From: Clostridia bacterium
Lineage (GTDB): Bacteria; Bacillota; Clostridia; Oscillospirales; CAG-272
Direction of reading: 5' to 3'
DNA length: 59,170 bases
NCBI GenBank assembly: GCA_017623975.1
Contig: JAGANX010000043.1
Span: forward strand, 1 to 59,170
Every line of letters begins with the position of its first letter. Positions within the stretch are counted from its first letter, which is position 1. Under the pieces are notes generated by a model. The model worked only from the letters and a program-made list of their open reading frames with translations. It searched no databases and was not told the DNA's origin. This document shows, piece after piece, positions 25,039 to 35,017 of this stretch. The translations under genes and the position numbers were made by a program.

Positions 25039-25590
25039 TTATTCAAATTCCTTTATTGCTTTTACAACCAAATCGGCGCAAAGGTCGATGCCCTCTTGGG
25101 AGAGGTGGATTTTGTCACATTCCTTTACATATTTATGTATATCCTTGGAAACGGCTGAGTGAAGGTCGTTTATTTTTATGCCTATTTCTTTGAGTCTTGG
25201 CACGATAATTTCATTAAAACGGTTGATTTTGTCATTATGTGTCCATTCAAATTCATCCCAAACAGGCGTTGTTGTGGCAAAAATAACATTTGGTGTAACC
25301 TTTTTTAACAGTGTTGCAATACGCACCATGTTTTCTATATATTCTTCCTCGCTTGTGAAAAGACCGTCATCAAAAATTTCAGTACAGTCCCAAAGTCCGT
25401 TATTCCAGTGGATTACGTCTGCCCCCTTGATACCGTCCTGCCAATCGAAAAGACCGCGCAGGGTATATTTTGCAAAGCGGCAATTGTCCTCAGGCTGATA
25501 AACCTCATATTCTTCACCGAGAAGCTGGGGAACCTTTGTGCCGTAGCCCCACAAACGAATGGAATCACCTAATAAAACTACTTTTTTCAT
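25039..25590 (-). CDS. SGNH/GDSL-type hydrolase
   Basis: The 183-aa protein has the GDS nucleophile block (LLGDSIRLWGYG, Ser10), an oxyanion-type HWNNGLWD near residue 60, and the C-terminal catalytic pair in DKIHLSQEG. It fits the SGNH hydrolase family of esterases that remove acyl groups from carbohydrates or lipids. No signal peptide is present. The deacetylase encoded convergently next to it makes deacylation of imported glycans a plausible shared theme, though this is inference. It has its own promoter and a leader hairpin. Confidence 0.82.
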   Translation of the reverse strand: MKKVVLLGDSIRLWGYGTKVPQLLGEEYEVYQPEDNCRFAKYTLRGLFDWQDGIKGADVIHWNNGLWDCTEIFDDGLFTSEEEYIENMVRIATLLKKVTPNVIFATTTPVWDEFEWTHNDKINRFNEIIVPRLKEIGIKINDLHSAVSKDIHKYVKECDKIHLSQEGIDLCADLVVKAIKEFE

Positions 25591-25673: not shown

Positions 25674-25839
25674 TGGAAAACGAAAATATTGTCAAAAAAT
25701 GCAGAAATTTTTCGTTTTGGCAAAAGAGGGGCAGTTGGGGGCACTTTTTTCTGTCATAATTAAATCACGGGGAACGAAATGCATCGCGGTGCAGGTTGAA
25801 AGCCTTGCAAAAAGGATGCAAACAGGAAAGGAGAAAATC

Positions 25840-26272
25840 ATGGGAAGGAAAAAAACAGCCATTGACACTTGAATTTTTGATAAAGGAAGGTAATGGGGCC
25901 TTAACTCCCGAAAAAAACGAAGAATGCTTAAATCAAAAGGGTGATGCGGTGGCAAAGGTAAACGAAGCTTTACAAAACAGCGCTTTTACAACAAAAAGAG
26001 GACGTCCGAAGAAGCGCAAAAATGAAAGGTTCAAAAAAGCCTTAACGGAAATTCTTTCCATGGTTATAGCTCCCGAAACTGTTGCTGAGGCGGTGAAGAA
26101 AACACCTCTTGGCGAAAAGATCACATATCAAGAAGCAATCTTGATAGCACAGGTTTTAAAGGCATCCAACGGGGATACTCAGGCGGCGGTCTTCATTCGT
26201 GATACAACGGGGAACAAATTGAAGGACAGCGGCGAGGAGGAACCGAAGGAAAGGACCTTTGAAAGCTTTTAA
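25840..26272 (+). CDS. Phage small-terminase-like protein, frame shifted at an A7 run
   Basis: The ATG at 25840 follows AAAGGAGAAAAT at ideal spacing, but its frame reaches TGA after 10 codons. Skipping one A in the A7 run (25849-25855) gives a continuous product of about 143 aa beginning MGRKKQPLTLEFLIKEG. The rest has a basic segment (TTKRGRPKKRKNERFKK), a helical domain and the ending VFIRDTTGNKLKDSGEE, typical of small terminase-like or DUF5681-type phage proteins that bind DNA. This could be a programmed or transcriptional slip, a recent mutation, or a homopolymer sequencing error. Without the shift only an unsupported TTG at 25796 could start the long frame. Confidence 0.65.
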
Positions 26273-26281
26273 TCAAACGTA

Positions 26282-26320
26282 TGGCTCAATCCAAATGCTA
26301 TATCTTGTTGGATTGAGCCA
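26282..26320. other. 12-bp perfect hairpin between phage cassette genes 1 and 2
   Basis: TGGCTCAATCCA (26282-26293) and TGGATTGAGCCA (26309-26320) pair fully with a 15-base loop. No T run follows, so it is not a standard terminator. It ends 11 bases before the ribosome binding site of the next gene. Confidence 0.7.
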
Positions 26321-26338
26321 AACTTATAAGGAGTATTT

Positions 26339-26971
26339 ATGAACTTAGGAGAAATCAAAATACAAGCCTTGTCTCTTATGTATCCTGATATAGGGATAAG
26401 GTTTGACGACACCCAAGGGGCAGGCGTGGAAAGGGCAATTTATGAGTTAAAGTCAAGCTCAAATTTCGAGGGGCTTTTGGAGACTTGCATAGGTGCTATT
26501 AACAGGGCGTTTGCTCAAATTGAGGCAAAGGGGCTAAGCCCAATTAAGTGCGTTGATAAGGCTGGCTCACTTTGCAAAAGAACGATAGACGGCAAGGTGG
26601 AAATTGATGTGGAGGGTGACTTTTTAACCTTGGAAAGACTGCTTTGCCACAGGGACGAAAAAACCTATGCCTGCCACTGTACCGTGCTTGGCAATAAGCT
26701 TTATACAAAGCAAAAAGGCAACGTCTATACCGTTGTTTATTACTCTAAAATCCCTCGCATTACAAGAATGACAAGTGACAGCTACGAGGTAGAAATAGCA
26801 GATAACGTATGTGAGGCTATACCTTATTTTGTAATGTCGGAGCTTTTATGGCGAGAGGACAAGGAAAGGGCAAAGGAAGCAAGGATAAACTTTTTTGAAG
26901 CTATAAATACGCTTGAAAAAGCAAAGCCCCTTTGCCACCAATGCTTTCAAATAGAATATTCAATGGAGTGA
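26339..26971 (+). CDS. Phage head-tail adaptor-like protein
   Basis: The 210-aa soluble protein has a mixed N-terminus, a beta-rich middle (about 75-150) and a helical C-terminus containing EAIPYFVMSELLWREDKERA. That pattern (an Ala/Ile-rich helix, then E..W..D) is seen in gp6-type adaptor and connector proteins of tailed phages. The match is by pattern only. AAGGAG precedes the ATG at 26339. The next gene starts 4 bases after the stop, so the pair is tightly coupled. The position between a small-terminase-like gene and a tail gene supports a virion role. Confidence 0.55.
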   Translation: MNLGEIKIQALSLMYPDIGIRFDDTQGAGVERAIYELKSSSNFEGLLETCIGAINRAFAQIEAKGLSPIKCVDKAGSLCKRTIDGKVEIDVEGDFLTLERLLCHRDEKTYACHCTVLGNKLYTKQKGNVYTVVYYSKIPRITRMTSDSYEVEIADNVCEAIPYFVMSELLWREDKERAKEARINFFEAINTLEKAKPLCHQCFQIEYSME

Positions 26972-26975
26972 TAAA

Positions 26976-29402
26976 ATGGCAAAGCAAACAATTTACACAA
27001 TAAAGGGGCTATCCGGAGTTGAGCTGAGTGACGAAAACGGCAAGGGTATGAGCTATATGAAAAATATGGTTATTGAAGAAGGGATAGCGAAAAAGCGTAG
27101 AGGGTGGAGAAATCTTTACAATTTTAGAGGCTATACATATCAGCCATATGCTATAAACGGAATTTATGAATATAAGGGCAAGGAAAAATCCTCCTTAATA
27201 ATTCACGCAGATTCCTATTTATATGAATGCAGCTACGATTTAAAGGATATATCTCAAATCCCTCTTGACTCGGGTGTTACCTTGAAAAACAAAAAAAGCA
27301 CAGGACAAATGCACGCAGGAGTGCTTTGGCTTGGCGGTATGGGTCAGCTTTTAATTTATGATGGAACAAGTGTGAAAAATGCCTTTGAAAGCGACCTTTC
27401 ATATATTCCCGTAACCGCTGTGGGAATAGGTGATATTAACTCCGGGCTTGAATACGAAAAAAATGAAAGCCCTAACCTAATATGCAGTAAAAGAATTAAC
27501 AAGCTGCGTGGAGTAAAAAACAGTGATTTTATGCACAAATTTTTGCTTGATTCTAAGGTAGCATACGGAAAGCCATTTAGCTTAACCGCTTCGTTCAGGG
27601 TAAGAAAAAGCACGGATACGTACGACCCGTATTCAACGGAATACATAGGCACAAGCAAAGGCGGTCAAGAGGTAAACACCGTTGTAACTGTGAATTTTTA
27701 TACAGACAGCTTAACTGAAAAAAGCATAAATGCGGTTGCCACACCGGTTGATATGTACGGTGACACTATAAATGTAGGCGGTGCCAATCTTTCGTGCAGG
27801 GTTACAAACGGAAACGAGCTTACTTTAAGCTTTGAGGCACCCACTTATCAAAAGGACACGGATAATATTAGTGTTACTTACGTATCAAAGGAAGGGGTTG
27901 ACACCCAAATTGACAGTATAGAAGCAATGGCACAAATTTCACTGAAATCAGGGGGAAGCGTAATGGCGGTCTGTTGCGGCACAAGTAAAATTTATTGCGC
28001 TATGGAAAAGGACGGATGCGTTTATTTCCCCAAAAACGGAGCTGTTACCGTTGGTGGTGAAACAGAAAAAATCACAGCATTAGTACCAATGGCACAAAGC
28101 GCCTTGGCGGTATATAAAAGGGATAGCTTTTATAGGTTAGAGGTTGGGGATGACGGAACAAGGCACGAGATTTTCCCAAGCTCTGACTCTTACGGAAGCA
28201 TAAGCTCCTTTGTGACAAAGCGTATAGGCTATGACTGCTTGTCTTACAATAAGCACGGTGTTTTCTTGGCAAGTGACAAAAGCGTTGAGGAAAACACAAA
28301 TACAAGATTATATACCGTAAGTACCCCCATTAACCGTGAGCTTAGTAAGCTTGATTTGGAGGATATGGATGAGGCGGTTGCCTGCGTTCACGACGGAGCA
28401 TATTACCTTTTTGTCGGGGGACGTGTCTATATTGCAGGGAATGACCAAGAAAAAGAGTACGAATGGTGGATGTTTGACAACTGTGATGCATCCTATGCTG
28501 CGTCAATAAACGGTAATATTTATATGGGCAGAAAAAACGGAGACGTTGCGGTGTTTGACAGTGGCTATACAGACAGGCAAGACTATGTGTTAACAGACAA
28601 GGAAAACGATTTTGTCATTCGTGAAGCAAGCCCTACTACCGTAGCATTTAACTATGCAATAGGCGTGCAGGATGGAACTAAAATAAGCTTAGATCCGCAT
28701 TATTTATATTTAAGCGAGTGTGTATATACTAAGGCTGACAACAAAATCAAGGTTCCGAGTGAAAGCTTTTTTGACAGCTACGGCTATGTTGATTTATGGG
28801 AAGGACAAGAGGTGCTTTTAATAGACAGCGAAGGGTATCAGGTTTATAGCGGTCAGCTTATAGATGTTGATCCGTGTGCATCCACTGTTTTTTGTGGCAA
28901 CCTTGGTCTTGGAGAAAGCTGTCGGTTGTCTCTTTACATAAAAAAGGACGAAAATACAGAATATACGGTTAAAACCGTGGGTGGCGTGAAGACGCTTTTT
29001 TATGGTGACAGACCTGCAACCTTAAAGCTTACAAGGGTTGAAAGGGTTATTGTAAGGCGCAAAAGGGACATAGAGTGCGAGCTTTATACGCCCGTAATAG
29101 ATTTAGGAGTAAACGGGTATAAAACCCTTTGCGGTATAATATTCACACCGACAGCGGATACAAGATGCAAGCTAAGGATAGGCTACGAAACAAGGAGAAG
29201 CGCTTTTTCAAAGGAGCTTACAATAGGCTCGTATATGGATTTTGAGGGAACGGACTTCAAGGATTTCAGCTTCAATCCAAGGTTTAAGAAAAGTATAAGG
29301 ATAAACTGTCTTGAAAGAAATTTCGACTATATAAGGCTATGGGTATATTCAAGTAGCGGCAGAGAGCTTGGAATAGACAGTATATCTTTAATTTATAGTT
29401 AA
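26976..29402 (+). CDS. Large phage tail (hub/stabilisation-like) protein
   Basis: The 808-aa protein is almost wholly beta-rich, without signal peptide or membrane segment. The N-terminus (TIKGLSGVELSDENGKGMSY, then KKRRGWRNLY) resembles tail proteins that open with a mostly-beta ring and a list of variables for a beta-propeller. Blades are suggested by recurring short strands such as YLFVGGRVYIAG and NIYMGRKNGDVAVF. C-terminal strands read IIFTPTADTRCKLRIGYE. The best guess is a tail tube, hub or stabilisation protein of a short-tailed phage type. It overlaps nothing and is spaced 11 bases before the fibre gene. Confidence 0.6.
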   Translation: MAKQTIYTIKGLSGVELSDENGKGMSYMKNMVIEEGIAKKRRGWRNLYNFRGYTYQPYAINGIYEYKGKEKSSLIIHADSYLYECSYDLKDISQIPLDSGVTLKNKKSTGQMHAGVLWLGGMGQLLIYDGTSVKNAFESDLSYIPVTAVGIGDINSGLEYEKNESPNLICSKRINKLRGVKNSDFMHKFLLDSKVAYGKPFSLTASFRVRKSTDTYDPYSTEYIGTSKGGQEVNTVVTVNFYTDSLTEKSINAVATPVDMYGDTINVGGANLSCRVTNGNELTLSFEAPTYQKDTDNISVTYVSKEGVDTQIDSIEAMAQISLKSGGSVMAVCCGTSKIYCAMEKDGCVYFPKNGAVTVGGETEKITALVPMAQSALAVYKRDSFYRLEVGDDGTRHEIFPSSDSYGSISSFVTKRIGYDCLSYNKHGVFLASDKSVEENTNTRLYTVSTPINRELSKLDLEDMDEAVACVHDGAYYLFVGGRVYIAGNDQEKEYEWWMFDNCDASYAASINGNIYMGRKNGDVAVFDSGYTDRQDYVLTDKENDFVIREASPTTVAFNYAIGVQDGTKISLDPHYLYLSECVYTKADNKIKVPSESFFDSYGYVDLWEGQEVLLIDSEGYQVYSGQLIDVDPCASTVFCGNLGLGESCRLSLYIKKDENTEYTVKTVGGVKTLFYGDRPATLKLTRVERVIVRRKRDIECELYTPVIDLGVNGYKTLCGIIFTPTADTRCKLRIGYETRRSAFSKELTIGSYMDFEGTDFKDFSFNPRFKKSIRINCLERNFDYIRLWVYSSSGRELGIDSISLIYS

Positions 29403-29413
29403 GGAGTGATTAA

Positions 29414-30820
29414 ATGAAGGAAAAATACAATTTAACGGGAGAGGAAGTCAATCAAATTTTGGCTAATTCCCCGTATGCGTTAAGCGACTCCCCTTATCAA
29501 AAGGGAATGGGGGCGGCGCAAATCAAAAAATATTTTTATGATTTTATAACCGTAATGGCAGAAAAATTCAATATCCATTTAAGCGATATTGAGGCGGATA
29601 TGGATACGGCAATACAAAGCCTTGAAGGCGACATTTTAACCGGTCGTGAAGAGCTTACGGCAAAATTTACAAGCTTGATAGAAAGCAGGCTTTTGGCACA
29701 AATTAATGAGCATAGTGAAAATTCACAAGCTCATACCGATATAAGAGATTTGATATACCAAATGTCAAGCGATTTAAGGGATGCAGCTATAAGAGCAGCA
29801 AATGCGAGCGAAACCGCAGAAAACGCTTATAGCTTGGCAAGCGGAAAAAGCAAGGTGCACGTAGCCTTAGATTTTAGAGATGTATTAAGTACTTTAATGT
29901 ACGCAGAGGTAAATGTTGGTGATTTTATGATAGCAACCGACAAAAACTGCCCTGACTTTATCGTTGGTGACGGCTCGTATAAGGCTCTTGCCGTTTCTGT
30001 AACCATTGATGATGTGGCGTCGGGAAATCTGCCAATAGCAGAGGTTGGCGGCATTTATTATTGCGAAGGCATTGACAAGGCTTTAATAGCTATTGAAAGC
30101 GGTATTGATGCAAGCGTTTTTGTTGAAAGGGAGGAATTAGATGCGGTTGCATCAGGCTTGGCATCATTAATAAATAACAAGCAAGACAAGCTGACTTTCG
30201 ACACAAAGCCTACACCGGATAGCGAAAACCCTATAACATCAGGTGGCGTTCGTGCAGAATTTGCAGCATTTAGTGAAGTATATGATGACATTATTGATAA
30301 TTCAAAAAATGAAGCAATCCAAGAAGCACAAAGCTACACGGATAAAAAGGTGCAAAAAGTATATGAGGAAATAGCAACCTTAACATTAGACGAAGACAGT
30401 TCTGTTGTAGAGTTTTTAAACCTTAATCTTTCTGAGTTTTATATTACATCGGAAAAAGCGGGTTTTGTTGACGGGTCGAAATCAACATTGTATGTATATG
30501 TAACAGTTAACGGTGATGGGACGTCTATTTTATCTAATGCAACTGTGGGACTTACTGCAACCGCTGAACGTGGATTTATGTGTCAAATGAGCCGTGAGCC
30601 TGACGGATTTATCAGTACTTGGTGTAATACAAGTAGTTCAGGAGGTGCTTGGAACTCACAAGTTGGTGTTTCGAGAGAGGTTAGGATACCACCGACTGCC
30701 GATGTAGCTGAATATCCTATAACAGGCATAAAACTATGTACATTGTTACCTGAGGATGGAGCGAGAAAATGGGTAGCAGGAAGTAAATTTACATTATGGG
30801 GGATTGAAGCAGATGAGTAA
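29414..30820 (+). CDS. Phage tail fibre / receptor-binding-like protein
   Basis: The 468-aa protein has a helical N-terminus, a coiled-coil section (about residues 55-140) with Ala-rich heptads, and the segment NKQDKLTFDTKPT..NPITSGGV (about 255-285), a phrase common in fibre and appendage proteins of gut phages. After a second coiled coil (about 295-325), a beta-rich C-terminal domain with aromatic and Ser/Gly stretches (about 330-468) would be the tip that binds a receptor. Its stop overlaps the start of the next gene by 8 bases (ATGAGTAA), which implies translational coupling. Confidence 0.65.
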   Translation: MKEKYNLTGEEVNQILANSPYALSDSPYQKGMGAAQIKKYFYDFITVMAEKFNIHLSDIEADMDTAIQSLEGDILTGREELTAKFTSLIESRLLAQINEHSENSQAHTDIRDLIYQMSSDLRDAAIRAANASETAENAYSLASGKSKVHVALDFRDVLSTLMYAEVNVGDFMIATDKNCPDFIVGDGSYKALAVSVTIDDVASGNLPIAEVGGIYYCEGIDKALIAIESGIDASVFVEREELDAVASGLASLINNKQDKLTFDTKPTPDSENPITSGGVRAEFAAFSEVYDDIIDNSKNEAIQEAQSYTDKKVQKVYEEIATLTLDEDSSVVEFLNLNLSEFYITSEKAGFVDGSKSTLYVYVTVNGDGTSILSNATVGLTATAERGFMCQMSREPDGFISTWCNTSSSGGAWNSQVGVSREVRIPPTADVAEYPITGIKLCTLLPEDGARKWVAGSKFTLWGIEADE

Positions 30821-31046
30821 CAAAACAGTAATAGCAAGAGCAAGAGATGCATATCCCGGTGAGCTTGACATTGTTGAAAAAGTAGAGTCTTTACCGTACA
30901 AGGACAGGGTAATTGCAAGGATAAGGGCGGTTTACTCGGTTGACGATGAAATTGCCATTATTCGACAAAGGGACACAAAGCCTCTTGAATTTGAGGAATA
31001 TAATAAATTCGTAGAACAAGTAAAAGCGGAGGAAAAGGAAAGATGA
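30813..31046 (+). CDS. Small conserved phage-associated protein
   Basis: The 77-aa charged helical protein contains YSVDDEIAIIRQRDTKPLEF, a pattern often seen in small genes that follow tail fibre genes in Clostridia phages. Its function is unknown. I use the ATG at 30813 because it overlaps the fibre stop, and its own stop overlaps the next ATG by 4 bases (ATGA). Confidence 0.65.
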   Translation: MSNKTVIARARDAYPGELDIVEKVESLPYKDRVIARIRAVYSVDDEIAIIRQRDTKPLEFEEYNKFVEQVKAEEKER

Positions 31047-31600
31047 AAAAGGTATTATTTTTAGCTTTTGCCTTGGTGCTTTGCTTTTGTTTATGTATTT
31101 CCTGCTTTGCGGAAACGGTAAACGGGACAGAGACAAGCATTAATGTAAAAGCATACATACAAGACAAAATTGTGCCTGTGGTTGTTGGGGTTTTAACCTC
31201 TATAATTGCCCTTATAACCACCATAGGCGTAATAGCCAAGAGCTTGAAGGGCTTAAAGGACACCAAGGAAGCATTTTCAAGCGAGGCAAAGGAGAGGGCA
31301 TACTTTTTTGAAAGCGGTGTTGCCCATATAGAAGCAAAGGCGGAAAAGATAAAGGAGCTTGTAAAGAACGTGCCCGACTTGCAAGAAAAAATTAAAGAGT
31401 TAACAAAAGAGTGCGAGCTTTTGGCAGAGATTTTGTCCCTTGGCTTTTCAGCAAACGAGGAGGTTATCAAAAGCGGCAAGGGCAAGAAAATGGCACTGCT
31501 TTTAGAAAACGCAAAACGAGGTGGTGACTCTGTCTCCGCCGATGAAGGCACAAATACAGAAATGGATGGTAGGAGCGAGCAGTGCTCGTCCGAGGAATGA
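31043..31600 (+). CDS. Phage-cassette membrane protein with coiled coil
   Basis: The 185-aa protein has a signal-peptide-like N-terminus (about residues 1-24, ending SCFAE), a transmembrane helix (about 40-62) and a long charged coiled coil (about 85-135), with an acidic tail. The predicted topology is an external N-terminus and a cytoplasmic coiled coil. Holin-associated and spanin-like roles are possible, but nothing diagnostic is seen. Its start overlaps the preceding gene by 4 bases, and the next gene begins one base after its stop. Confidence 0.6.
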   Translation: MKKVLFLAFALVLCFCLCISCFAETVNGTETSINVKAYIQDKIVPVVVGVLTSIIALITTIGVIAKSLKGLKDTKEAFSSEAKERAYFFESGVAHIEAKAEKIKELVKNVPDLQEKIKELTKECELLAEILSLGFSANEEVIKSGKGKKMALLLENAKRGGDSVSADEGTNTEMDGRSEQCSSEE

Positions 31601-31601
31601 G

Positions 31602-32021
31602 GTGAAAAGGGTGAAAGGGCTTAAAATTCCACTATTATATTTGCTTTCCTTTTTAGTTAGCGTTTTTCCTGTGGCTATTTACTTTTTTGTAAATGCGGAT
31701 AGGTACTTTGTAACAGTGCCCGATAAGGTGAAAATTACAACAGGGCTTATTTGCCTTTGCGTAATCGTATTTTTAAAGGTTATGGGCAAATTAAAAATGC
31801 CAAGCAGGGCGGTGCTTTTTGGACTTGTTACCGTTATGTGCTACCTTTTGGAAAGGGTGCTTAATGACCTAATTGTATTTTCCTTTCTTGCCTTGGTGGG
31901 TGAGGTGCTTGATATGATTTGCCAATACTACATAAAAAGAGAAAAGGAAAAACGAATAGCCGAGAAAACCGCGCAAATTACAAGCAGAGAAATTGAGAAG
32001 GCTTTGAACGGACGGGTGTGA
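31602..32021 (+). CDS. Putative phage holin-like membrane protein
   Basis: The 139-aa protein has about three or four transmembrane helices (about 6-28, 40-55, 60-82 and 85-105) and a basic C-terminal helix ending in EKALNGRV. This fits phage holin families. The GTG at 31602 is preferred because GAGG lies six bases upstream; a GTG at 31611 is possible. The frame extends upstream over the previous gene without a supported start. No endolysin is visible next to it. Confidence 0.5.
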   Translation: MKRVKGLKIPLLYLLSFLVSVFPVAIYFFVNADRYFVTVPDKVKITTGLICLCVIVFLKVMGKLKMPSRAVLFGLVTVMCYLLERVLNDLIVFSFLALVGEVLDMICQYYIKREKEKRIAEKTAQITSREIEKALNGRV

Positions 32022-32207
32022 CAACCATTGACGGTTGTCAACTCTATTTGCTTCGCAAGTTATATTGAGCACGCTCAGTGATATTGCTAACGCAGTGATA
32101 TTTGGCTATACCAAGCTTAAATCAAATAGAATATCACTACGAGCAAAGCGAGTAATATCACTCTTCAAAGAAGAATATCACTACGAGCAAAGTGAGTAAT
32201 AACACTA
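32019..32207. repeat. AATATCAC/GTGATATT hairpin array (array B)
   Basis: GTGATATT at 32078 and 32095 faces AATATCAC at 32130, 32154 and 32174. Small hairpins lie between them, for example GACAACC/GGTTGTC (32019-32038) and TCTTC-AAA-GAAGA. The array fills the 200-base gap between the holin-like gene and the last cassette gene. It is related in style to the repeats at 17531 and 58521. Confidence 0.65.
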
Positions 32208-32222
32208 AGGAGAAAAATAAAA

Positions 32223-33140
32223 ATGAAAAAGAACAATTTTACAGAAATGTTTTACAAAAACGCAGGGTACATAGTGGTTGCCTTGATATCAATCGTTTAT
32301 GTGGCAAGCTCTCTTATTAACATTTCCAAAAGCGGAAAAAGCGTTTATGAAATAATTGGCTCAGGTGTTTTAAGTCTTATTGTAGGCATTATGATAAACG
32401 GTGTGTTTCGTTCAATCGGAGTGCGAAAGGGGGACGAGGACGAGCGTACAATTGCCACAAACGAGCTGCACGCAAAAGCAGTTGAGGAAATTTCCCCTTA
32501 CATAGACAAGCTTGATACCTTTTGCGAAAATGAAAACAAAAGAGCTTTAAAAGAGGTCCGCACACGCATTTTGGCAAGAGAGGGAATGAAGTACAGCGAC
32601 TACTTTGACGAGGAAGGAAACGCCAAATCCCCAACTCTACTAAAAAGCGAGTTGGGGGCACCGAAAAATGATGGCTGTGAAGAACAGAACCGAGGAAGGC
32701 ATTTGATACATAGATCGCATCACAGAGAGGATGCACAGGAAAAGGCTAAATTGCGGGCATACAAAAAGGCTTTGCGTGTGAAATTAAAGCCTCTTGTGTC
32801 ATCTAATCTAACCTCTGACGGAGTAAAGGCAAACGACCCATTTGATTTTGGTAAAAGCAAAAGGGAGTTTACCACACAAAGAAACGCATCCGATATTTTA
32901 ATTAAGCTAATAATGGCAATAATTTTCGGTTACTTTGGAGTTTCCTTGTCAAGCGAGGTAAATGTGGCTTCTCTAATATGGAACGGACTTCAAATTGTCC
33001 TATACGTAACAGGGGGTGTTGTACAAATGTACAACTCATATATGTGGATAGTTGATGACTACCGCGGAAGCGTAATAAAGAAGATTGATTATCTACAAAA
33101 ATTTAAAAACTGCATAAAAGCGGAAAATAATACAAATTAA
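32223..33140 (+). CDS. Phage-cassette membrane protein of unknown function
   Basis: The 305-aa protein has two N-terminal transmembrane helices (about 15-65), a long charged soluble stretch (about 70-215), and two further helices (about 225-275) followed by a basic helix with IKKIDYLQKFKNC. The middle contains KPLVSSNLTSDG and ANDPFDFGKSKRE. A palindromic tract at 32629-32657 lies inside the gene in frame and encodes an atypical segment (about residues 135-175). AAGGAG precedes the ATG. It is the last gene of the cassette; the function is unknown. Confidence 0.6.
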   Translation: MKKNNFTEMFYKNAGYIVVALISIVYVASSLINISKSGKSVYEIIGSGVLSLIVGIMINGVFRSIGVRKGDEDERTIATNELHAKAVEEISPYIDKLDTFCENENKRALKEVRTRILAREGMKYSDYFDEEGNAKSPTLLKSELGAPKNDGCEEQNRGRHLIHRSHHREDAQEKAKLRAYKKALRVKLKPLVSSNLTSDGVKANDPFDFGKSKREFTTQRNASDILIKLIMAIIFGYFGVSLSSEVNVASLIWNGLQIVLYVTGGVVQMYNSYMWIVDDYRGSVIKKIDYLQKFKNCIKAENNTN

Positions 33141-33156
33141 ACTTTTATATATAATA

Positions 33157-33185
33157 TTGACATCCAATAAAAAAGGTGATAAAAT
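33157..33185 (+). promoter_or_regulatory. Promoter of the transketolase operon
   Basis: TTGACA (33157-33162) and TAAAAT (33180-33185), 17 bp apart. Confidence 0.88.
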
Positions 33186-33215
33186 ATCATATATATTTTT
33201 ATTCGGAGGTTCAAA

Positions 33216-34052
33216 ATGGACAACGAGAAGATTTTAGATTTGAAGAAAAAAGCAGTTGATATAAGACTTGGCGCTGTTGAGGCGGTTTATAACGGAAAAT
33301 CAGGGCATCCGGGCGGTGCTTTGTCAGCGGCTGACGTTTTGGCATGTCTATACTTTTCAGAGCTTAACATAAACCCTAAGAAGCCCGCTGACCCTAATAG
33401 AGACAGGTTTGTGCTTTCAAAGGGACACTCCTGCCCTGCACTTTATACAGCTATGGCAATGCGTGGATATTTTGATATAAAAGAGCTGAAAAATTTTAGA
33501 AAGCTCGGCTCTTTAACACAGGGACATCCTGATATGAAAACTATGAAGGGCATTGACATGTCCGCAGGCTCCTTGGGTCAAGGCTTTTCCGTTGCTTGCG
33601 GTATGGCTTTGGCAGCAAAGCTAAACGGTAAGGACTACCGTACATACGTTATGATTGGTGACGGTGAGAGCCAAGAGGGTCAAATTTGGGAAGCGACAAT
33701 GTTCGCAGCCCACTATAAGCTTGACAATCTTTGCCTGATTATAGATAATAACGGCTTGCAAATTGACGGTGCGGTTAAGGATGTTATGAATACAATGCCT
33801 TACCCAAGCAAGTTTAAGGCGTTTGGCTGGAACGTCGTTTCTATTGACGGACATAATGTTGAAGAAATTCTTGAAGCATTTGAAAAAGCAAGAAACACAA
33901 AGAACAAGCCTACCGTTATCGTTGCAAAAACGGTTAAGGGCAAGGGCGTTTCCTTTATGGAAAATCAAGCGGGCTGGCACGGTAAGGCTCCAAATGAGGA
34001 GCAGTATAACCAAGCTAAAAGCGAGCTTGAAGCATATAAGGCTACACTTTAA
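33216..34052 (+). CDS. Transketolase, N-terminal subunit
   Basis: The 278-aa subunit holds the thiamine pyrophosphate-binding half of transketolase: GHPGGALSAADVLACLYF near residue 30, SKGHSCPALY, and the TPP motif GDGESQEGQIWEA with the following NN. Transketolase moves two-carbon units in the non-oxidative pentose phosphate pathway. Split two-gene transketolases are normal in many Clostridia. TCGGAGG precedes the ATG. The partner starts 14 bases after the stop. Neighbouring phage genes upstream are separated by a strong promoter. Confidence 0.95.
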   Translation: MDNEKILDLKKKAVDIRLGAVEAVYNGKSGHPGGALSAADVLACLYFSELNINPKKPADPNRDRFVLSKGHSCPALYTAMAMRGYFDIKELKNFRKLGSLTQGHPDMKTMKGIDMSAGSLGQGFSVACGMALAAKLNGKDYRTYVMIGDGESQEGQIWEATMFAAHYKLDNLCLIIDNNGLQIDGAVKDVMNTMPYPSKFKAFGWNVVSIDGHNVEEILEAFEKARNTKNKPTVIVAKTVKGKGVSFMENQAGWHGKAPNEEQYNQAKSELEAYKATL

Positions 34053-34066
34053 GGAGGTATCGTAAA

Positions 34067-35017
34067 ATGGCTGATAAAATAGCAACAAGAGAAGCGTACG
34101 GTAACGCTTTGGCTGAATTTGGCGCAAGATATAATGACATTGTCGTTTTAGATGCCGACTTGGCAGAGGCAACAAAAACTTGCGTATTTAAAAAGAAATT
34201 TCCTGAAAGGTTTTTTGATTGCGGTATTGCGGAAAACAATATGTTTGGCGTTGCCGCAGGTCTTGCAACCGCAGGTAAAATCCCATTTGCATCTACCTTT
34301 GCAATGTTTGCAGCGGGTAGAAGCTTTGACCAGGTTAGAAACTCTATCGGTTACCCACATTTGAATGTAAAAATCTGTGCAACACACGGCGGTGTCAGCG
34401 TTGGTGAGGACGGTGCTACACACCAGTGCTGCGAGGATATGGCGCTTATGCGTACAATTCCCGGTATGGTTGTTATGAACCCTGCTGACGCAATTGAGGC
34501 AAGATGCGCAGTTGAAGCGGCAATTAAGTATAACGGTCCTGTATATATCCGCTTTGGCAGACTTCCCGTTTCCGTTATTAACGATAATGAGGACTACAAG
34601 TTTGAAATCGGCAAGGGTGTTAAGTTAGCTGACGGTACTGATGTTACTATCGTAGCAAACGGCTTGATGGTTGAGCAGGCGCTTATCGCAAGAGAGATTT
34701 TGCGTGGCGAGGGCATTTCCGCATCCGTTATTAACATGCATACAGTAAAGCCGCTTGACACACAGCTTTTGCTTACAGAGGCGCAGCAAACAGGTGCTAT
34801 TGTAACTACCGAGGAGCATAATGTATTAGGCGGTCTTGGTAGCGCAGTTGCAGAGGCACTTTCTGAAATTTGCCCTGTTCCTGTTGTAAAGCACGGTGTA
34901 CCTGACCAATTTGGTAAATCAGGCGCAGGCAAGGACTTGCTTGAATACTTTGGACTTAACGCAAACGGTATAGTTGAAAAGGTAAAGGCAGCCCTTAAAT
35001 TAAAGAAGATGAGATAA
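34067..35017 (+). CDS. Transketolase, C-terminal subunit
   Basis: The 316-aa subunit holds the pyrimidine-binding and C-terminal domains: REAYGNALAEFG, GIAENNMFGVAAGLA with the catalytic Glu, and ATHGGVSVGEDGATHQ. It pairs with the N-terminal subunit encoded directly upstream to form the active site. AAGGAGG precedes the ATG. A terminator follows at 35022. It could be confused with a 1-deoxyxylulose-5-phosphate synthase C-terminal half, but the split pair and spacing favour transketolase. Confidence 0.94.
   Translation: MADKIATREAYGNALAEFGARYNDIVVLDADLAEATKTCVFKKKFPERFFDCGIAENNMFGVAAGLATAGKIPFASTFAMFAAGRSFDQVRNSIGYPHLNVKICATHGGVSVGEDGATHQCCEDMALMRTIPGMVVMNPADAIEARCAVEAAIKYNGPVYIRFGRLPVSVINDNEDYKFEIGKGVKLADGTDVTIVANGLMVEQALIAREILRGEGISASVINMHTVKPLDTQLLLTEAQQTGAIVTTEEHNVLGGLGSAVAEALSEICPVPVVKHGVPDQFGKSGAGKDLLEYFGLNANGIVEKVKAALKLKKMR

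Follow-up and report, generated by a model that had tools for sequence, protein, structure and literature searches.

Why would a clostridial chromosome keep a compact set of phage tail genes without any gene for a phage head? The question is raised by a stretch of 59,170 nucleotides from Clostridia bacterium (GenBank assembly GCA_017623975.1, contig JAGANX010000043.1; hereafter the window), which lies in a metagenome-assembled genome (MAG) that is 54% complete (G000) and in which eight genes of phage character stand together on the + strand between positions 25840 and 33140. We propose that this cassette probably encodes the tail of a gene transfer agent (GTA) that derives from a short-tailed (podovirus-type) phage and is split over at least two chromosomal sites. 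The proposal is based on the two sites with their mostly kept flanks, the co-occurrence of both loci, the single clade of carriers, purifying selection, motifs of the large terminase (TerL) and a promoter common to both operons. Together, the head and tail halves probably form particles in which DNA of the bacterium itself passes from cell to cell.

A first-pass annotation, made from the letters of the window, had described the eight co-directional genes as coding for small-terminase-like, adaptor-like, 808-aa, fibre, 77-aa and three membrane proteins, with all frames but the first intact. The eight open reading frames (ORFs) were confirmed at their places (Table 1), with junctions that are short or overlap. 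The second to the eighth frame are open, and the ATG of the first, the small terminase (TerS) gene, is out of frame. Comparison of the cassette proteins with PHROGs and Pfam gave no capsid, portal, TerL or integrase match, as the annotation had held, and no replication, toxin, immunity, tube or sheath match. The TerS family occurs immediately 5' of TerL in prophages L086 and L096, and the C-terminal ~95 residues of the window's TerS are conserved, open and alignable to the copies of 16 other cassettes and of two prophages. For the adaptor, phrog_13046 is matched by 14 of 20 members. The 808-aa gene directly follows the adaptor gene in cassettes and in prophages alike; its product has tblastn matches to virion proteins of Bacillus Page-group phages (E 1e-6, over one third of its length), no Pfam or PHROG match and, in a PDB profile search, weak matches to designed 'Cake' proteins and nothing else. 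Phage records gave remote Page-group matches for this protein and none for the 305-aa protein, and pattern scans of genome_contigs and viral_contigs returned no relative of the 808-aa protein, which is too divergent for pattern scanning. The N-terminal ~250 aa of the fibre are homologous across cassettes, the window's fibre being 31% identical to that of G295 and 38% to that of G089. Simple hydropathy gives two, three and three membrane stretches in the 185-, ~137- and 305-aa proteins; the ~137-aa protein is present in all 17 genomes that carry the cassette (one copy cut by a contig end; 39-70% identity to 11 other aligned carriers), and the 305-aa protein in the 17 carriers and in 14 prophage copies. 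Because prophages carry the same genes at the same place, the three membrane proteins are phage-derived.

The annotation had suggested looking for the same gene order in related genomes. Relatives of the 808-aa protein were found in 14 of 295 genomes family-wide; of the 29 genomes of the genus, profile searches detected this protein in 24, whether in a cassette or in a prophage, and found the 305-aa protein in 23. Examination of the surroundings of the matches, with genes labelled by hidden Markov models, reveals two locus types. Full prophages have TerL, portal, scaffold, capsid, adaptor and 808-like genes, mostly together with fibre and membrane genes and in several cases with a very large gene. 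The compact tail cassette, in turn, recurs in 17 of the 29 genus genomes (G000, G089, G262, G278, G176, G295, G304, G296, G299, G310, G307, G302, G305, G212, G301, G312 and G298) and is therefore not a chance arrangement. Seven tracked families (TerS, adaptor, 808-aa, fibre and the three membrane proteins) are present in all 17 carriers except for the fibre of G312, where the contig ends; some tracked genes are cut by contig ends, and five carriers lack, or do not show, an additional gene, p475. Split transketolase genes lie directly 3' of the 305-aa gene in 15 of the 17, on a single contig with the whole cassette in 12 of them and with the cassette divided over contigs in G305, G212 and G301. 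A simple empty site was not found: the transketolase regions of 11 of the 12 non-carriers and of the carrier G298, as well as the DUF711 regions (see below) of 10 of the 12 non-carriers, have other neighbours, and thus the arrival of the system is not readable as one insertion.

The head genes are found elsewhere in the same genomes. Profiles for capsid, portal and TerL, built from prophages only, each match 22 of the 29 genomes, and in 16 of the 17 carriers TerL, portal, a scaffold-like gene and capsid stand together at a second locus, at which no TerS or tail gene is labelled. A PDB profile search with the portal gave one weak unrelated match. Portals are 526-582 aa long in carriers vs 576-669 aa in prophages. 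The P-loop stretch is seen in 12 of 13 carrier TerLs and the other compared stretches in 13 of 13; we take these stretches to be the ATPase and nuclease motifs. Host flank is kept at 14 of the 16 head loci, with DUF711 on the TerL side and on the same contig in 12, and the Noc/ParB/ParA side alone seen in G296 and G295. Both loci are present in 16 of the 29 genomes, the tail alone in one (G305, whose contig, L285, ends at the head site), the head alone in none and neither in 12; among the 11 genomes that are at least 90% complete, eight have both loci and three have neither. Single absences are weak, since no more than 3 of the 12 non-carriers reach 90% completeness. No head was found at the corresponding site in any of the 10 non-carriers whose site was seen, and 6 of the 12 non-carriers have prophage relatives. 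In G278 the lengths of the contigs put the head and tail loci at least 71 kb from each other; lying apart, the loci are not packageable as one short piece.

This second locus bears directly on two proposals made by the annotation. The first was a headless tail. A tail-only bacteriocin made from the cassette alone would account for the lack of any head gene in it, yet TerL, portal, scaffold-like and capsid genes at a conserved site in nearly every carrier and at the matching site of none of the non-carriers seen, under the promoter that also drives the tail operon (see below), make it very improbable. The second was a satellite that borrows capsids, i.e., one that takes the heads of a helper prophage while its TerS redirects the helper's packaging. 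Such an element would fit the place of TerS among tail genes, and G212, G296 and G310 do carry full or partial prophage relatives in addition to the cassette. However, 16 of the 17 carriers encode their own capsid, the cassette has no match to integration or replication genes, its site is mostly fixed and its inheritance vertical (see below). Moreover, in 14 of the 17 carriers the cassette copy is the sole 808-aa gene, and therefore no related helper is present. A phage satellite was rejected on these grounds, and we regard it as barely credible.

The same unusual element, typically TGTACCG..C.GTACCGGTTTTTTTATGCAATAAT, lies 5' of TerS and 5' of TerL; the two copies of the window's genome have a species-specific form and are identical to each other over 40 bases. 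The tail-operon motif has one match in the window vs none expected. A genus-wide pattern search, which missed the carriers G299 and G302, identified 37 sites in 18 genomes (reversed control, 0); by their coordinates, 23 precede TerS or TerL of this system, two precede TerS in the full prophages of G313 and G314 and 12 lie elsewhere. Both prophages having this TerS carry the motif before it. Since the sites precede TerS and TerL, including TerS in full prophages, the element is probably the phage's own late promoter. Pairing was assessed in 13 species with both sites scored, the places having been found by four consensus strings from these same genomes; the set excludes G299 (one mismatch over the limit, its two sites looking alike) and G298, G301 and G305 (no head site to score). 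The tail copy best matches the head copy of its own genome in 10 of the 13, with ranks 2, 4 and 5 in G176, G295 and G278, and none of 20,000 shuffles reached the observed sum. A single dedicated activator reading both sites would be expected to produce this parallel drift.

The two loci have descended with their host. A host tree of 28 genomes was obtained from proteins encoded near the two loci and not part of them, namely transketolase (two subunits), DUF711, OAH-lyase and MetA (found in 28, 27, 23, 21 and 21 genomes); in this tree, a branch with 100% support separates the 17 carriers from the other genomes. Trees were also compared over the 11 carriers with all markers: of 8 splits, the tail tree has 5 in common with the host tree, and the head tree has 4 in common with each of the other two; 2000 label shuffles gave means of 0.3-0.4 (host/tail 0.30, host/head 0.37) and maxima of 5 (host/tail), 3 (host/head) and 4 (head/tail). 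Carriers also form one clade in the portal tree (16 carrier vs 17 prophage copies; 100/100) and in the tree of the 808-aa protein (17 vs 17; 90/90). In G296/G305, the closest and unsaturated pair, the ratio of nonsynonymous to synonymous substitution rates (dN/dS) of seven tail genes is 0.10-0.20 at dS of 0.65-1.35, the 305-aa gene being at 0.10; for four other pairs, most dS values exceed 1.2 or are saturated, and the frames are still open. The same genes, mostly at the same site and in open frames, under purifying selection in the measurable pair and within one clade of carriers bear out the annotation's suggestion of domestication. For its other suggestion, a decayed prophage, it had named beforehand what would speak for simple decay, packaging genes at this position in relatives; within the sequence seen, no copy of the 17 has them at this site. 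A single prophage split by rearrangement and now decaying could explain the odd TerS start in the window and a split TerL in G295, but cassette families that are open in 17 species except at contig ends, the low dN/dS and the coupled promoter drift leave this explanation with next to no probability.

In the model that we favour, one site would supply TerL, portal, scaffold-like protein and capsid, and the window's site TerS, adaptor, tail hub, fibre(s) and the three membrane proteins. In some of the cells, a host signal would lead one activator to switch both operons on; capsids or procapsids would then assemble, TerS and TerL would fill the heads with pieces of the host chromosome, the adaptor, hub and fibres would dock on the portal, which the first two would close, and the fibres would set the recipient. 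The membrane proteins, perhaps with a holin encoded elsewhere, may open the cell by lysis, and the DNA would be delivered to relatives. The available parts of a published account list six criteria for GTAs: proteins of tailed phages, full endogenisation, often at several loci, vertical inheritance with co-diversification, packaging of mostly random host DNA, incomplete packaging of the agent's own genes owing to small heads, and delivery of DNA to other cells (PMC9662315). As judged by sequence, three of these are apparent here: origin from tailed phages (PHROG, Pfam and PDB matches for capsid, portal, TerL and adaptor, together with the prophage relatives), full endogenisation at several loci (two in 16 of the 17 carriers) and vertical inheritance with co-diversification (one host clade at 100%, shared splits). 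The other three concern particles. A particle like PBSX, in which tailed heads hold host DNA and kill as a bacteriocin with no DNA delivery, would use the same genes, and both the fast divergence of the fibres (as between G000 and G295) and two Rhs-like genes of G212 that stand behind exact 25-nt copies of the promoter core would suit a killer. The adaptor, hub and TerL motifs are nevertheless kept, which fits an injecting particle, and toxin or immunity matches are lacking among the window's cassette proteins; we consider a PBSX-like killer unlikely.

Several observations weigh against the GTA. The system is known from its genes, from which we infer particles, packaging and delivery. In the window, a run of seven A separates the ribosome site and ATG of TerS (25840) from the conserved part, which is in another frame; this is either an assembly error or real damage, the two being indistinguishable. 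The cassette of G312 lies on the other side of transketolase and that of G298 is unlinked to transketolase on its contig, and the head loci of these two genomes have neither usual flank. TerL shows a G-to-S change in the P-loop of G307, a called ORF that begins after the P-loop in G212 (start unclear) and two pieces in G295. Carriers are not one clade in the capsid and TerL trees (three changes each; one clade in 0% and 30% of bootstrap trees), and the 305-aa tree has two changes, with two prophages nested among carriers; thus, these trees alone do not show a single origin. The scaffold-like gene is loosely constrained, with dN/dS of 0.24-0.44 where measurable. No endolysin match was obtained with PHROGs or Pfam for the proteins of the window's cassette or of its head locus. 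Alphaproteobacterial GTAs reportedly bear a cost-saving signature of lower carbon content; it is absent here, where seven proteins are not lower in carbon and the portal and ~137-aa protein are higher. Finally, all genomes are MAGs, and completeness is below 90% in 9 of the 12 non-carriers.

The closest known system, judging from the parts of its report available, is FpGTA of Faecalibacterium (Borodovich et al. 2026), a podovirus-like element with two operons and particles shown by microscopy, DNA and proteomics, which these parts call the first GTA-like element of podovirus-like form (PMC12946183). They also list GTA-like packaging in Christensenellaceae and Oscillospiraceae, without giving a locus (PMC12946183). 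Like FpGTA as described there, the system here has two separate operons in gut Clostridia, is podovirus-like and keeps TerL, portal, scaffold and capsid together, with tail genes at a second site. By the same description, FpGTA I combines TerS and some tail components with the head, whereas in the present system TerS is encoded with the complete tail, apart from the head operon, and FpGTA II has a holin and an endolysin, whereas neither locus of the window's genome gave an endolysin match. Paired promoters are a feature here and are not mentioned for FpGTA in the available parts of PMC12946183. The lineage also differs from Faecalibacterium, and evidence is given here for common descent of the loci. 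Close homology to FpGTA, which was compared by description only, seems unlikely, as none of the 42 loci that a capsid pattern matched in genome_contigs has a Faecalibacterium title. The matching public records are mainly ruminant-gut MAGs titled 'Clostridia bacterium' and 'Oscillospiraceae bacterium'.

Among other phage-derived particles, RcGTA is siphovirus-like, PBSX is encoded at one locus, and R-type and F-type tailocins are domesticated phage tails with fibres, without heads and with long contractile or flexible tails. The cassette is likewise a domesticated tail with a fibre, but has no tube or sheath match. A tailocin was rejected in view of the capsid and packaging genes, which belong to the system by their locus and shared promoter. 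According to the parts available of PMC9662315, RcGTA (Rhodogtaviriformidae) resembles the present system in having phage-derived genes dispersed over host loci and vertically inherited, and differs in belonging to Alphaproteobacteria and in having five loci. PBSX of Bacillus subtilis is, like it, a GTA-like element of a Gram-positive host, and is described in the available parts of PMC12946183 as not injecting its packaged DNA.

Among the papers listed by literature searches, none was seen to report this two-locus system. If our reading holds, it would be a second podovirus-like GTA lineage, consisting of one clade of 17 carriers with co-diversification, purifying selection and promoters that evolve together; the available parts of the FpGTA study contain no test of selection or of common descent of its loci (PMC12946183). 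The promoter would provide a sequence rule for finding other GTA genes and the regulator in uncultured gut bacteria. By extension, the result points to the possibility that 'incomplete prophages' only a few kilobases long are halves of split systems.

Table 1. Coordinates of the tail cassette, its landmarks and the head locus in the window's genome.
Feature	Contig	Position	Strand	Remarks
Promoter motif, tail operon	window	25728..25760	+	upstream repeat-like box, T-run, extended -10 (TG..ATAAT)
TerS-like protein	window	25840..26272	+	phrog_2412, 1.2e-9; weak DUF5681 match
TerS conserved domain	window	about 25994-26269	+	from aligned copies
Head-to-tail adaptor, 210 aa	window	26339..26971	+	profile match to PDB 9d83_B 'Head to tail adaptor Gp50', E 1.5e-5
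808-aa tail hub/nozzle-like protein (putative)	window	26976..29402	+	place after adaptor; Page-group virion relatives
Tail fibre, 468 aa	window	29414..30820	+	N-terminus conserved, C-terminus variable
77-aa protein	window	30813..31046	+	62% identity over 47 aa to the prophage L037 gene in the corresponding position
185-aa membrane protein	window	31043..31600	+	signal-like N-terminus, coiled coil; holin-like by weak matches only
~137-aa membrane protein	window	31602 or 31611-32021 (listed as 31521-32021)	+	three hydrophobic stretches
305-aa membrane protein	window	32223..33140	+	among the most conserved cassette proteins
Split transketolase genes (landmark outside the cassette)	window	33216-34052, 34067-35017	+	directly 3' of the 305-aa gene
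Capsid, head locus	G000:C13	3695-4537		PHROG 3e-41
Scaffold-like gene, head locus	G000:C13	4669-5358		
Portal, head locus	G000:C13	5391-7106		PHROG 4e-40
TerL, head locus	G000:C13	7248-9017		PHROG 2e-20

Some of the promoter-like sites found elsewhere have neighbours of phage character. In G212, two Rhs-like genes (L331 5376-9896 and L332 4974-9662) directly follow their promoter-core copies, one assigned by Pfam and the other by 39% identity to the first. A replication-initiation-like gene and a DnaC-like loader stand directly after a similar site (3 mismatches in 22) near a contig end of the window's genome (G000:C59, L346 1835-3129); two more sites in this genome have no clear phage gene after them. 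A holin, a promoter site and a helix-turn-helix gene adjoin each other in G089:C73 (L334 3050-4905) and G301:C101 (L338 3170-3973), the former also with a relative of the ArpU-like gene that precedes packaging genes in prophages. A DUF6291 gene follows a site in G089, and related ORFs of 80-82 aa follow sites in G302 and G305. The sites at G293:C23, G296:C13:3732, G305:C26, G310:C37 and G089:C14 are without explanation. A speculative and rather doubtful extension is a multi-site GTA regulon, in which phage-derived promoter copies, kept in step by a fast-evolving dedicated activator, would also command replication and killing modules. The agent might then start from a fixed origin to amplify host DNA ahead of packaging, and might arm the donor as it lyses; run-off replication is said to be linked to a Bartonella GTA.

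A second copy of the head locus in the window's MAG (G000:C31, L132) is ~97% identical to G307:C21 over 11.4 and 3.6 kb; the MAG thus seems to mix two species, and the contig is probably contamination. Between the TerS and adaptor genes, positions 26283-26319 hold a perfect 10-bp stem (GGCTCAATCC/GGATTGAGCC), at the spot where a full phage would have its head genes; in G089 the two genes nearly touch. Adjoining the cassette in the divergent direction is a 183-aa GDSL-hydrolase-like gene (25039-25590, - strand); it is a neighbour in G000, G089, G295 and G301, which are one host subclade, and is unlabelled beside the other cassettes seen. On the other side, positions 33141-33215 appear to hold transketolase's own promoter (TTGACA, 17 bases, TAAAAT), so that it has no necessary dependence on the cassette. 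Among the prophages, L074, L078, L088, L090, L033 and L036 are short-tailed elements of ruminant-gut Clostridia whose membrane genes are followed by very large genes, of ~1480 aa (cut) to 2257 aa, and viral contigs hold at least 430 capsid relatives.

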